A DNA stretch of 64,000 nt. Source: Candidatus Hydrogenedentota bacterium (lineage in GTDB: Bacteria > UBA8481 > J006). A model generated the notes under the pieces. That model did no database searches and was not told where the DNA came from. It saw only the letters and a list, made by a program, of their open reading frames with translations. Of the stretch, positions 11,681-57,210 are shown piece after piece (positions within the stretch are counted from its first letter, which is position 1; each line of letters begins with the position of its first letter). A program made the translations under genes and the position numbers. Location: the NCBI GenBank assembly GCA_003697085.1, contig RFFU01000070.1, positions 1 through 64,000 on the forward strand, given 5' to 3'.

Positions 11681-11864
11681 CCTCATCCTCCGAAACGTCC
11701 GAACATCGCGGGCATCCTAAACACAAAAAAGCGTTTCGCAAGAAGAAAGTGGAAACCTCCGGAAAAGGGAACCGGGTGTCCCGCGGAAGGAATTCTCCGC
11801 CGAGAACGGAGTGAATGTGCGGTGCTTCCGCGGACGAGAGATCCCTCGCTCCCGAGGATCCACT

Positions 11865-11989
11865 GCAGACTGGAAAAGCGGCGCTCCACTGCATCCCATA
11901 GGCGGCAGTGTCCGGGGTGCATGCCAAATTTTGGGCAAGGTCAAATTTAGCCAAACAGGCATTCCCGGGAACGCAGGCATCTCGCCTGC
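11865..11989. repeat. Intergenic hairpin-repeat cluster (11865-11887; related unit on minus strand at about 11967-11989)
   Basis: GCAGACTGGAAAAGCGGCGCTCC; revcomp of second unit GCAGGCGAGATGCCTGCGTTCCC. Confidence 0.7.
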
Positions 11990-12278
11990 AAAAACGGGCT
12001 CATAGAAGTGACCTTTCGCCCTCCCCCGATCATATGCAGGATTTCGCCCAGGAGTGGACTGATACGATTCGGCAAAAAGCGCCCATTTTTCGCCATACAA
12101 CCGAGTGTCCGCGCTTCGTTGCATTCCACAGACCCCACACCTTACAATCCCCGGAAGGCCCAACTGCCAAAATTGGGTCGCGCCGCTGATCCACACCTCC
12201 CTCCGACTAATCCTTGCTCGATCACGTCCTCTCGTTTATCTTTCCTTTCCCTGTCCACTCGAAAGGAATGCTTTTTCC

Positions 12279-19712: not shown

Positions 19713-19908
19713 AAAGAACTTCCTCCATCTCGGAGGCGTTTCCTCGCCCGTCTTCCGGAGGGGCGCCCCTCCACCCCCGATGTCGTCCTTCCCTCTTCCC
19801 CTTTCACCCGATAAAAACGTTCTGGCCGTTCCCGATCCATAGACGGGAGTTTCTCTCGAATCTCTTTTGAATACAACTCTAAATCGGAATCCCTTCGGTC
19901 CTCCTTTC

Positions 19909-20041
19909 TCCGGTTGGAGAACCTGCGCCCCATTCCTGCAGGAAAGAAACCCGCGCGCCACTTTCGCCTTGTTATGGAGGGCGGACTCTGTAGTCTGCGG
20001 ATGGCCGATCCGCTTTTCGCAGTTTAGAGAACCTGGGCTCC
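19909..20041. repeat. Intergenic cluster of 23-bp hairpin repeats (3 copies: 19909-19931, 19976-19998 inverted, 20019-20041)
   Basis: TCCGGTTGGAGAACCTGCGCCCC; revcomp GCAGACTACAGAGTCCGCCCTCC; GCAGTTTAGAGAACCTGGGCTCC. Confidence 0.75.
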
Positions 20042-20239
20042 ACATTTTTTCCCTTGATCATGCCCTTCCACCGCAGTCGAAGACACGAAGATTCATCAAG
20101 GCTTATCGAGAGGTTGATCGAACGTTTGGTGGGCTGGTTACAACTCGAGAAAAGAAATCTTCCAGACGACCCTGAACCCCGATCCTACTTTCCGTCCCAA
20201 CCCCGTGAATGTTTACGAAAAATTCTCCTCGGAATCCGT

Positions 20240-51993: not shown

Positions 51994-52349
51994 GGCTCTC
52001 CTTCCGAAAAGTAATCCTCTCCACCGTTATCCTAGAAGAAACCCCCTCCCACGCAATCAAAAAAGGTGTCATTCTTCCAATTTGTCAATTTCACCACTTC
52101 GGAAGTCTAAATTTTTGAGACATTTTTATTGTAAGAGTCCATCCGAAAAACCTGGTTGTCGCCAAGCCGCATCCCTTTCTATCTTGCTGGGAACGAAACG
52201 GATCCTTCGTCGTCCAGGAGATTAAGGGATCGATTTAAGCACGCCAACGGTGCCGGGGATACGAAGGCTGTTCGTAACAATTTACCAAAAGATGCCCGGA
52301 TCAATCGGGCACGCAACACTGTTCAGTTTCGTCTTTCCACGATGGTCCT

Positions 52350-52488
52350 GCAGACTGGAGAATCCGCGCTCCAACGCGGTGCTGAGATCACCGCACCGAC
52401 AAGATGCCAGCGGTCCGGGCAACCACGCTCTTTGCGGTTCTTCTGCCGGCAAGATGCCTGCGTTCCCAGGTTGGAGAGCCCTCGCTCT
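52350..52488 (+). repeat. Intergenic hairpin-repeat cluster (23-bp units 52350-52372 and 52466-52488, plus related GCCGGCAAGATGCCTGCGTTCCC unit)
   Basis: GCAGACTGGAGAATCCGCGCTCC; CCAGGTTGGAGAGCCCTCGCTCT. Confidence 0.75.
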
Positions 52489-52637
52489 CTCAGACGGCTT
52501 GAAATGAGAGGTGAATTTTCCGCGGCCAAAAATCTTTTCGACATAAGGAACCATTTCTTGACCCGCCCCCCCGCGGAATACTCGGGAGGTTGCCCGGAGG
52601 AAGAATGCCACTTACAATCCTGTAACGGACCTCAAAA

Positions 52638-55600
52638 ATGATATTCGACGAAAAGAAGAAATATCGCCTTGCATTCCTTTCCCGCACGGCCAGGAAGCGA
52701 ATCCTGCTTCTCGACGGAGCGATGGGAACGATGATCCAGAGACACTCACTCGCGGAGGAGGATTTTCGAGGCGAGCGATTCCGGAGTCATCCGAAGGAAC
52801 TGAAGGGGTGCAACGACCTCCTTGTCCTCACGCAACCCGATCTCATCGCGAAAATTCACCGTGAGTATTTCGAAGCCGGTTCGGACATCATCGAAACGAA
52901 TACATTCAATTCCACGCGGATTTCGATGGTCGACTACGGCCTTGAATCCACTGTCCGCGAGATCAACGAAGCCGCGGCGCGACTGGCTCGAAAAGTCGCG
53001 GATGAATTTGAAACGGAGGAGCATCCGCGTTTTGTTGCCGGAGTGCTCGGCCCCACCAACCGAACGGCCACGCTCTCCCCAGACGTTGAGCGTCCCGGTT
53101 TCCGCAACGTCACATTCAAGGAACTGGTTGCGGCCTATACGGAAGCAACCGAGGGGCTCATCGCCGGCGGCGCGGACCTCTTGTTGATCGAAACGGTCTT
53201 CGACACGCTCAATGCCAAGGCGGCCATCTGGGCCGTTCTGGACTCCTTCGAGCGACTTGGTTTCGCACTTCCGATCATGATTTCGGGAACCATCACCGAC
53301 GCAGGCGGACGCACACTTTCGGGACAGACACCGGAAGCGTTCTGGTATTCCGTCTCCCACGCGAAGCCCTTCTCGATCGGATTCAACTGCGCCCTGGGCG
53401 CGGCGGAATTGCGCCCGCACATCCGCGAGATTTCCTCCGTCGCCGATACCTTCGTAAGCGCTCATCCGAACGCGGGACTTCCCAACGAGTTCGGGGGGTA
53501 CGATGAAACTCCGGAGAAGATGGCGCACATTCTCGAAGACTTCGCCCGCGAGGGGCTTCTCAACATTGTCGGAGGTTGTTGCGGAACGACGCCGGATCAT
53601 ATCCGTGCCATCGGCGAAGCGGTAGCCGGCCTTCCTCCTCGGGTCGTCCCCGAGATACCGCCATACTGCCGCCTCAGCGGTCTCGAACCGCTCGTGATCC
53701 GACCGGAGGCGAACTTCGTAAACGTCGGAGAACGAACCAACGTCGCCGGCTCACGCCGATTCGCTCGGCTCATCCGGGAGGAGAAATACACTGAAGCGCT
53801 CGCAGTCGCCCGCGAACAAGTTGAGAACGGCGCCCAGATGATCGACGTCAATATGGACGAAGGAATGCTCGACTCCGAGGAAGCGATGCGCCGATTTCTC
53901 TTTCTCGTCGCCGGAGAGCCGGACATCTGCCGCGTCCCCATTATGATCGATTCGTCGAAATGGAACGTCATCGAAGCAGGATTGGAATGCGTCCAAGGGA
54001 AGGGCGTCGTCAATTCACTGAGTCTGAAGGAAGGTGAGGAGGCTTTTCTCGAGCAGGCGAAACGCGTCCGAAGGCATGGTTTCGCCACGATCGTGATGGC
54101 CTTCGACGAAGAGGGACAGGCGGACACCGTTGAACGGCGCATCGCGATCTGTCGGCGGGCCTACCGGCTCCTCACCGAAAAACTTGACTTTCCTCCTCAA
54201 GATATCATCTTCGATCCCAACATCTTCGCCGTCGCCACGGGAATTCCGGAGCACAACAACTACGCCGTCGATTTCTTCACGGCCACCCGCGAAATCAAAC
54301 GGCAGTGTCCCGGAGTTTTGATCAGCGGTGGTGTCAGCAACGTGTCCTTCTCCTTCCGCGGCAACAATGTGATTCGTGAGGCGATGCATGCGGTCTTTCT
54401 CTATCATGCGATAAAGGCCGGGATGGATATGGGCATCGTCAACGCGGGTCAGTTGGCCGTTTACGATGAAGTTCCCCCCGAATTGCGCAAACGGGTGGAA
54501 GACGTCATTCTGAATCGCCGCCCCGACGCAACGGAACGTCTGATGGAATTCGCCGAGACGGTCAAGCAGGGAGCCGAGTCCGCAAAAACCGAATCGGAAG
54601 CGGCGCGATGGCGTCGGGCTCCCGTCGAGGAAAGACTTCAGCACGCGCTTTTGAAGGGAATTGCGGAGCACATCGAGGAGGATACGTTGGAAGCGCTGGA
54701 GAAGTTCGGCCGCCCGATCTCCGTTATCGAGGGACCGTTGATGGATGGAATGAACCGCGTGGGGGATCTCTTTGGAGCGGGAAAGATGTTCTTACCTCAG
54801 GTCGTCAAGAGCGCGCGGGTGATGAAACGAGCCGTGGCGGTACTGATCCCCTTCCTCGAAAAAGAAGAGGCGGAGGGAGCCCAAAAGCGGAAAGGTCGCA
54901 TCGTTTTGGCGACCGTGAAGGGCGACGTGCATGACATCGGAAAGAATATCGTCGGAGTCGTTTTGAAATGCAACGGATACGATATCCTCGATCTCGGTGT
55001 TATGGTTCCGGCGGAGAAGATTCTTGCGGCGGCACGGAAGCACAATGCGGATGCGATCGGCTTGAGCGGACTGATTACACCGAGCCTCGATGAGATGGTG
55101 AATGTCGCTCGGGAGATGGAGCGGGCGGGATTGACCGTTCCTCTGCTCATCGGCGGCGCGACAACCTCGCGCATCCACACCGCCGTTCGAATCGACCCGG
55201 AGTACTCGCATCCCGTAATCCACGTCAAAGACGCTTCTCGTGCCGTCGGAGTGACGGGTGAAATCTTCAGTGACGATCTTCGCGAAAATTTTCTTCAGCG
55301 TTTGGGGCAGGAATACGCGGAATTACGCGAACGCCATACGAACCGGAAGAAACGTGAAGACCTCCTGAGCCTCGAAGAGGCTCGGGAACACCGATTCGAT
55401 GGAGGGTGGGACGAGTATACACCGCCGCGACCGAGTTTCCTCGGCGTGCGTCCTCTCGAAAACCTCCCGCTCGACGAGATCATCGCCCGATTCGATTGGA
55501 CGCCTTTCTTTCAAACCTGGGAATTGAAGGGCCGCTTTCCGGCGATCTTGGACGATCCGAAGGTCGGCACCGAGGCGCGAAAACTTCATTCGGATGCGCT

Positions 55601-56252
55601 CGCCATGCTGGAAAGAATTCGCGATTTGGGGCGCGTTTTTCCCCGGGCTGCTGTCGGGTTCTTCCCGGCCAATTCCCGAAACGAAACCGTGATCATTTAC
55701 CGGGATGACGAGCGCACCGAGGAACGCGGGGCTTTCCAATTTCCGAGGCAGGTCCGAAAAAGGGGCGCCCGGTCCGATTCCTCTTTCATCTGCTATTCTC
55801 TGGCGGATTTCATTGCGCCGGTGGAGACGGGATTGCGTGATTATCTCGGAGGATTCGTGGTGACGGCCGGGCCGGAAATCGAGGAGTTGGCCCGGGAGCA
55901 CGAAGAAGCGGGCGACGACTACGGTTCGATTCTCATCAAGTCTTTGGCGGACCGGATCGCCGAGGCGTTGGCGGAATACCTCCATCTTCTCGTTCGAACG
56001 ACGCTTTGGGGCTACGCGCCCGAGGAGTCTCTTTCCAACGAGGACATCTTGCGCGAACGTTATCGAGGAATCCGACCGGCATTCGGTTACCCCGCCTGCC
56101 CGGACCACTCCGGCAAGCGGCTTCTGTGGGAACTGCTCGAGGCCGACCGCCTCACGCCCGTTCGACTGACCGAGACCTTCGCGATGCAACCGGCTTCTTC
56201 CGTCAGCGGCCTTTACTTTGCGCATCCGGGAGCATGCTACTTCGCCGTTTGA
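52638..56252 (+). CDS. metH: Cobalamin-dependent methionine synthase
   Basis: [98 protein letters not shown]-terminal activation domain present. Confidence 0.97.
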
Positions 56253-56574: not shown

Positions 56575-56868
56575 TCATCTTTCGCGGCCGTTTTCGCGAC
56601 CGTAATCACCCCGACGATCTTCCCGACATCTTTGTCCCTGAGTGTCAACACCTTCCCTTAGATTCTCTCGGGCTTCTTCAAGAGACGAACCTTGAGTATT
56701 CGCTCCCGGGATCTTCTCCGCATAGCCTAACCAGCCTCCTTCCTCCTGCTGATAGACAGTGTGAAACTTTCCGATTCGTGGCACCTTTGTATTTCCGCGT
56801 ATCTTTGAAACGAGTCTAGAAGCGGCTTCATAAGTACCGCTCCTGCCTCGAAAATCCTGAAATATCAA
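56575..56868 (-). pseudogene. HicB-like antitoxin remnant, apparently frameshifted
   Basis: KFHTVYQQEEGGWLGYAEKIPGANTQGSSLEEARENLREGV resembles HicB; after it the frame degenerates while another frame reads LRDKDVGKIVGVITVAKTAAKDEKLSPPS. Confidence 0.45.
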
Positions 56869-56900
56869 GGGGAAAGAAAGCCTTATGAAACCGCTTCTAG
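56816..56900. repeat. 85-bp inverted repeat (19-bp arms, 1 mismatch)
   Basis: ctagaagcggcttcataag (56816-56834) versus cttatgaaaccgcttctag (56882-56900). Confidence 0.85.
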
Positions 56901-56981
56901 TCCAAATCGTTGGTCGTGCCTAGAACGAATCGACGGCGGCGTTGGGGGGCGCGTCAAAGAAACGGCAAGCCGGTCCGTTCC

Positions 56982-57097
56982 GCAGGTTGGAGAACCTGCG
57001 CTCCATTACTGCAGGCAGACCTGCGCTCCCAGGTTTCGCCGCAGACTGGAGTGTCGGCGCTCCAACTGCCAGCCGTGGACTGGAGGGTCCGCGCTCC
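56982..57097 (+). repeat. Intergenic hairpin-repeat cluster (56982-57004, 57041-57063, 57075-57097, plus related 57011-57029)
   Basis: GCAGGTTGGAGAACCTGCGCTCC; GCAGACTGGAGTGTCGGCGCTCC; GTGGACTGGAGGGTCCGCGCTCC. Confidence 0.85.
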
Positions 57098-57210
57098 GTT
57101 GCCGCGCTTTCATACCGCGAAATTGACAAATTGGAAGAATGACCCCCTTGTCAGGTGGGGTTTAAAGGCATATTCTGCTTTGCTTGAATGAAATGGGAGG
57201 TCGAGGAATC

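Follow-up and report, generated by a model that had tools for sequence, protein, structure and literature searches.

Published superfamilies of repetitive extragenic palindromes (REPs) carry a characteristic tetranucleotide tag, either GTAG (with the variants GYAG, GYRG, GTRG, GTMG and GTGG) or CGTC (PMC3733652). In published REPtrons, the tetranucleotide serves as a guide and cutting takes place at a CT (PMC8266576), and an automatic survey of REPs used a GT[AG]G tag and described class 3 hairpins with CnGA feet (PMC6006769).

Here we analyze a dispersed hairpin repeat in a bacterial genome, starting from a window of 64,000 nucleotides (the whole stretch of DNA examined). The repeat resembles GTAG REPs and REPtrons (PMC3733652, PMC2817692, PMC8266576) in being a palindrome of 20-30 nt with a 5′-foot tetranucleotide, a 6-9-bp stem, and a 2-4-nt loop, in its more than 100 intergenic copies with complementary stem changes and inverted doublets, and in the occurrence of such units on both sides of RAYT genes, whereas its tag is GGAG (in some copies GGAA or GGGG) and its source genome was found to contain no cognate RAYT. 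With E. coli-type BIMEs and REPINs (PMC2817692, PMC3116915), it shares alternating opposite-facing units, two related motifs (A and B), and fixed linkers, but these linkers measure 14 and 18 nt, some are widened by dispersed repeats, and there is a third unit, C. CGTC REPs (PMC3733652) are likewise tagged short palindromes, similar also in that no linked transposase was found in the source genome, although their tag is different and GGAG hairpins flank RAYTs in other genomes. The hairpins of class 3/subclass 2.6 TnpA_Y1 (PMC6006769) also lack GT[AG]G, flank Y1 transposases, and come partly from Acidobacteria, but class 3 has CnGA feet and a weaker structure, while the GGAG-flanked proteins match the REP_Tyr_transpos equivalog. 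Finally, a TIRYT element (PMC3733652) is present in the source genome, on contig C64, with many dispersed copies of its terminal inverted repeat (TIR); unlike the GGAG repeat, it has long inverted ends (GGTGTCATTCTTCCA...), and the two have no sequence in common.

As a tag (at the beginning of a word), GGAG was absent from the main texts of the REP literature checked, with figures, supplements, and most subscription papers outside that scope, and a search for the literal unit sequences returned no relevant paper. The tag is likely, though not proven, to be new. Our preferred reading, to which we assign a probability of roughly 0.8, is that the repeat constitutes a REP family tagged with GGAG and comprising three unit types (A, B, and C), arranged in BIME-like mosaics with REPIN-like inverted A-B doublets and moved by a RAYT.

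Structure and tag of the hairpin unit

The first-pass annotation described a 23-mer on the less informative strand; read as the reverse complement, the 23-mer is a REP with a 5′ GGAG tag, and what that description calls the "GGAG loop" and the "CTCC tail" correspond there to a CTCC loop and to the GGAG tag, respectively. On the REP strand, type A reads TGGAG-CGCAGACT-CTCC-AGTCTGCG and type B reads TGGAG-CGCAGGTT-CTCC-AACCTGCG, the difference between them lying in two pairs with compensated changes (A-T to G-C, C-G to T-A). The A/B unit is a palindrome within the 20-40 nt expected of a REP and forms a hairpin with an 8-bp stem and a 4-nt loop, with GGAG touching the stem foot. The pairing originally proposed between positions 1-7 and 12-18 is real, but the stem is one pair longer than the 7 bp then claimed, the additional pair joining, on the strand first read, the C before position 1 to the G after position 18. 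A sister unit, type C (CCTGGGAGC-GCAGGCA-TCT-TGCCTGC), has a 7-bp stem and is present at three of the four sites in the window.

All nine copies initially reported at these four sites are present (Table 1), and chance does not account for them, with four matches to the consensus at up to three mismatches compared with 0.00 expected from dinucleotide shuffles. Eight of the nine are recovered by the covariance model at E <= 7e-4, the copy at 19909-19931 being weak (E = 0.027), and four units, a degenerate A and three of type C, had been missed.

Table 1. Repeat units and doublet linker in the window, in order of position (strand is that of the REP reading; units marked "new" were not in the first-pass annotation)
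Feature	Position	Strand	Score or basis
Type A REP unit, degenerate (new)	11829..11853	-	17.4 bits, E 0.039
Type A REP unit, degenerate	11864..11888	-	27.0 bits
Type C REP unit (new)	11964..11990	+	41.9 bits, E 1.6e-8
Type B REP unit, weak	19908..19932	-	18.1 bits, E 0.027; type from A/B pair analysis
Type A REP unit, left half of inverted A-B doublet (REPIN/BIME-like)	19975..19999	+	Covariance model and pair analysis
Doublet linker, 18 nt (gatggccgatccgctttt)	20000..20017	.	Same 18-nt spacing in five doublets
Type B REP unit, right half of doublet	20018..20042	-	Covariance model and pair analysis
Type A REP unit	52349..52373	-	36.2 bits
Type C REP unit (new)	52444..52470	-	43.4 bits, E 6.5e-9
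Type B REP unit, degenerate	52465..52489	-	24.4 bits; type from A/B pair analysis
Type B REP unit, perfect 8-bp stem	56981..57005	-	41.3 bits, E 3.8e-8
Type C REP unit, degenerate (new)	57010..57033	-	27.8 bits, E 5.3e-5
Type A REP unit	57040..57064	-	35.9 bits
Type A variant REP unit (GTGGACT/GGTCCGC on the strand first read)	57074..57098	-	30.8 bits

Among 40 distinct A/B sequences, 91.6% of the stem cells are paired, and the covariation score (0.350) is above that of shuffles (0.212 +- 0.018), none of 500 scoring as high; the signal collapses when the partner is slid by 1-3 columns, which bears out the compensatory changes first noticed in the window. G-U pairs are among the tolerated stem changes, and column conservation across copies stops at about -1 and +24, short linkers excepted. 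Folded as DNA, a single unit reaches -8.7 kcal/mol (z -3.65), and an A-B doublet forms one long hairpin of -16.2 kcal/mol (z -3.9). A suggested pseudoknot between the GGAG loop and the CTCC tail was rejected: tag-loop pairing has no clear covariation, its score being reached by 26 of 500 shuffles and equally by a 2-column slide, and TCC loops are also found with GTAG tags. One copy, at C16:34491, has the single double change, combining the tag GGTG with the loop CACC. The tail is not invariant as had been stated, reading CCCC at 19909 and CTCT at 52466.

A conserved 5′-foot tetranucleotide, as in REPs, is seen in all three unit types, more weakly in B and C than in A: GGAG stands in this register in 49 of 58 A units, in 24 of 43 B units (with GGGG in 12), and in 30 of 66 C units (with GGAA in 14). 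The tag is neither GTAG or one of its variants (GYAG, GYRG, GTRG, GTMG, GTGG) nor CGTC. GTAG-1 REPs from Pseudomonas putida (TGTGGGAGCGGGC) and Xanthomonas (GTAGGAGCGCGC) contain GGAGCG like the GGAG family, with their own GTGG/GTAG tag placed upstream of it, and in many A/B copies NTGG can be read one step upstream of GGAG. The bases just upstream of GGAG in type A are GTGG, TTGG, and ATGG at about equal frequency, and the GTGG register two bases upstream is kept by no more than 16 of the 58 A units and 12 of the 43 B units. The NTGG register of GTAG-1 REPs was set aside, being less well kept in A and unsupported at six RAYT loci that carry GGAG hairpins, although it is possible for type C. 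Because 14 of the 16 flanking units at those six loci lack TGG upstream, GGAG at the foot appears to be the better reading of the tag, the register being not beyond doubt. The GGAG family may have descended from a GTAG-1-like REP.

Copy number and mosaic arrangement in the source genome

The source genome measures 3.2 Mb in an assembly of 145 contigs that is 94.6% complete. A genome-wide search of the kind first proposed, with covariance models for A/B (R1) and C (R2), returned at least 153 A/B and at least 152 C copies, counts that are lower bounds since only the best candidates were scored; the family thus comprises at least about 300 copies, of which the window's nine are a small sample. 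The A/B pattern with up to one mismatch has 109 copies in the genome compared with 0 for the reversed pattern. As in REPs, the copies are numerous, dispersed, and mostly located between genes: in sampled stretches that are 74% coding, 127 of 135 lie outside genes called approximately from codon usage, so that the earlier description as purely intergenic holds for nearly all copies, but not strictly for all (8 of 135). Copy number, covariation, and the chance test together bear out a REP-like, structured, dispersed element. A MITE would show the TIRs of an autonomous element and target-site duplications. Conservation in the GGAG family was confined to the 25-27-nt unit and its linkers, and there was no empty site to compare.

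Neighboring units lie at discrete distances from one another. The arrangement of C, 4 nt, and then A/B accounts for 16 of 35 such neighbors, and every inverted A/B pair (18 of 18) joins one A with one B. The spacing is exactly 14 nt in five pairs (A- B+) and exactly 18 nt in five others, whose tags face outward; a further seven pairs are 74-135 nt apart, and the last is separated by 42 nt. Most of the 74-135-nt linkers contain another dispersed repeat, either a GTAGGGGCGACC hairpin or a TCATTCCGAG/GAGGAATC element. Most pairs have a linker of exactly 14 or 18 nt or an 18-nt linker widened by other repeats. With opposite-facing pairs at preferred spacings, the copies form a BIME-like mosaic whose A-B doublet architecture is that of BIMEs and REPINs. 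Such mosaics are now known also from a lineage for which the genome collection searched contains hardly any sequenced relatives. Other dispersed repeats of this genome (L013, L016, L023, L027, and window positions 56820-56900) include GTAGGGGCGACC hairpins, TGTCATTCCGAG/GAGGAATCC elements, CACGGAAGACACGGAA strings, and TGAAACCGCTTCTA pairs, and some of them sit in A-B linkers.

Transcribed hairpins could produce a similar pattern if they acted as terminators, mRNA 3′-end stabilizers, or protein-binding sites under selection for RNA structure, and the units are indeed stable as RNA (-11.4 to -13.0 kcal/mol for single hairpins; -36 kcal/mol, z -5.8, for the doublet) and tolerate G-U pairs in their stems. 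Nevertheless, an Rfam scan of the window gave no match at the gathering score, and the copies are not enriched after genes, their flanking-gene orientations (59 tandem, 26 divergent, and 22 convergent) following the background of 62, 21, and 20 gaps. As the alternating A-B pairs, fixed linkers, nested linker repeats, and RAYT-flanking relatives also fit a mobile element better, we consider it unlikely that the repeat is primarily an RNA element, although an RNA role could be a secondary function.

Still less likely is a spread that needed no dedicated enzyme, by replication slippage, gene conversion, or segmental duplication of intergenic DNA. Long flanks are common to some copies, and a pair of close Acidobacteriota genomes have arrays of unequal size; yet most copies have only the 25-27-nt unit in common, every inverted pair joins A with B at preferred spacings, and units of this kind bracket RAYT genes elsewhere. 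The shared flanks belong to two loci, one with a GGDEF-like gene (L013, 1501-2694) and one with a glutamine-amidotransferase-like gene (L023, 1484-2775). Each gene is enclosed by two type A units whose long flanks are nearly identical and which are separated by about 1.2 kb, as if from segmental duplication.

Relatives, transposases, and proposed mode of spread

A search of 114 further genomes, among them the sole member of the same order in the set, did not find the A/B pattern (up to one mismatch), and the R2 model has no match in this closest relative (G001). An R2 match was found in a Blastocatellia genome (G133), and among 297 genomes of its phylum, Acidobacteriota, 20 contain the C-type pattern, with up to 111 copies and none in reversed controls. 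In the Acidobacteriota set, the loop-closing pair varies among A-T, G-C, T-A, and C-G while the TCY loop is kept. Two of the positive genomes, G274 and G315, consist of one large contig each (2,683,362 and 2,639,773 bases). An empty-site comparison of two near-identical Acidobacteriota genomes revealed a difference in REP array size and no clean insertion.

The Y1_Tnp genes of C-positive genomes led to loci in which a RAYT is bracketed by CCTG-GGAG or other GGAGC hairpins, including L242, L243, L247, and L261 with GGAG hairpins on both sides. Seed proteins score 96.9, 89.5, and 83.3 bits against the NCBIfam REP-associated tyrosine transposase cut-off of 80, and a GGAG-RAYT profile built from three proteins retrieved further members. 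When all 256 tags were tested at 26 loci, the RAYT gene was bracketed by GGAG at 11, GTAG at 5, and GGAA at 2, compared with 0 of 218 control segments with any bracketing tag; four of the 11 GGAG loci are profile seeds or near-copies, and without them GGAG accounts for 7 of 22. GGAG-tagged hairpins thus flank RAYTs in other genomes, as in REPtrons, while the A/B form was not seen adjoining any RAYT. A supported clade of the RAYT tree (95/98, 13 rows) contains eight GGAG and two GGAA loci, no GTAG, and otherwise no tag; over the whole tree, the GGAG label does not cluster above shuffles (361/500), and tags mix outside that clade. RAYTs of the GGAG-profile type occur in 15 of 20 repeat-positive and 10 of 20 repeat-negative Acidobacteriota genomes, which hardly separates the groups, and one genome with 40 repeat copies (G202) has no close RAYT of the GGAG-flanked kind.

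The link to a REP-associated transposase that the first-pass annotation had suggested looking up is therefore found in other genomes and not in the repeat's own, where the single Y1_Tnp gene, on C64, ends in long inverted repeats (GGTGTCATTCTTCCATTTTGACAATTTC / GAAACTGTCAAACTGTAAGAATGACACC) unrelated to the hairpin. That the repeats are MITE-like relics of this TIRYT, mobilized in trans by the C64 enzyme, is the least likely of the alternatives: the gene is the genome's only Y1 transposase, its TIR end motif has 61 dispersed copies (0 in reversed controls), and TIR copies lie near two hairpin clusters of the window, but no GGAG hairpin occurs at the ends of the transposase locus, the TIRs and REPs have no common sequence, and the protein, the only one found in the source genome with the GGAG-RAYT profile, scores 46.4 bits, under the RAYT cut-off of 80, and has no more than remote similarity to the GGAG-flanked RAYTs. 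A link between the repeat and this transposase was rejected, the ends of the latter being TIRs. The TIR copies in the window (GTCATTCTTCCAATTTGTCA at 52068-52087, +, and 57124-57143, -) are oriented toward each other on the two sides of an interval of about 5 kb that contains a methionine synthase (52638-56252) and two hairpin clusters.

Most likely, then, the GGAG REP/BIME family spread as single-stranded hairpins through a RAYT that is now lost or unassembled. In a single strand, such as the lagging-strand template, a unit would fold into its 8-bp (A/B) or 7-bp (C) hairpin with GGAG at the 5′ foot, in the guide-sequence place held by GTAG in known REPs. A RAYT (TnpA_REP, an HUH/Y1 nuclease) would recognize tag and hairpin, cut at a nearby CT dinucleotide, and copy or move the unit or doublet into intergenic DNA. 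We infer the cutting, the mobility, the lagging-strand step, and a past cognate RAYT in the source genome. No RAYT flanked by the same REP was detected in the 94.6%-complete assembly, which does not prove its absence; the family has probably been orphaned, unless its cognate RAYT lies in the unassembled part.

Scope of the GGAG family and the setting of its RAYT genes

Tentatively, and at somewhat less than even odds, GGAG REPs may form a third large superfamily beside GTAG and CGTC, with its own clade of GGAG-reading RAYTs, present in Acidobacteriota and at least one further deep lineage, that of the source genome, where hundreds of copies would persist after loss of the enzyme. As the automatic survey relied on GT[AG]G (PMC6006769), a large GGAG family with RAYT partners could have been missed. 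A single RAYT family offers natural guide variants (GGAG, GGAA, and GTAG), so that how the tetranucleotide sets the cleavage site becomes testable with existing proteins instead of mutants. GGAA-tagged hairpins bracket two RAYT loci, in G160 (L298) and G283 (L295), making GGAA a possible further tag variant.

Several RAYT genes are also found in frame within other genes. In L242 (71-3682), L243 (38-3658), and L247 (1296-4880), a whole GGAG-REP-flanked RAYT lies in frame inside HmaB (DUF1156), the adenine methylase of a defense system, at positions that differ between two lineages. Similarly, in L295 (91-3540), L286, and L289, RAYTs are embedded in frame in restriction-modification methyltransferase genes of type III and type IIG, and all RAYT loci checked with reading frames of more than 1000 aa are in DNA methyltransferases. 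In L261 (1732-3579), the frame of a GGAG-flanked RAYT runs without a stop into aminotransferase-like sequence.
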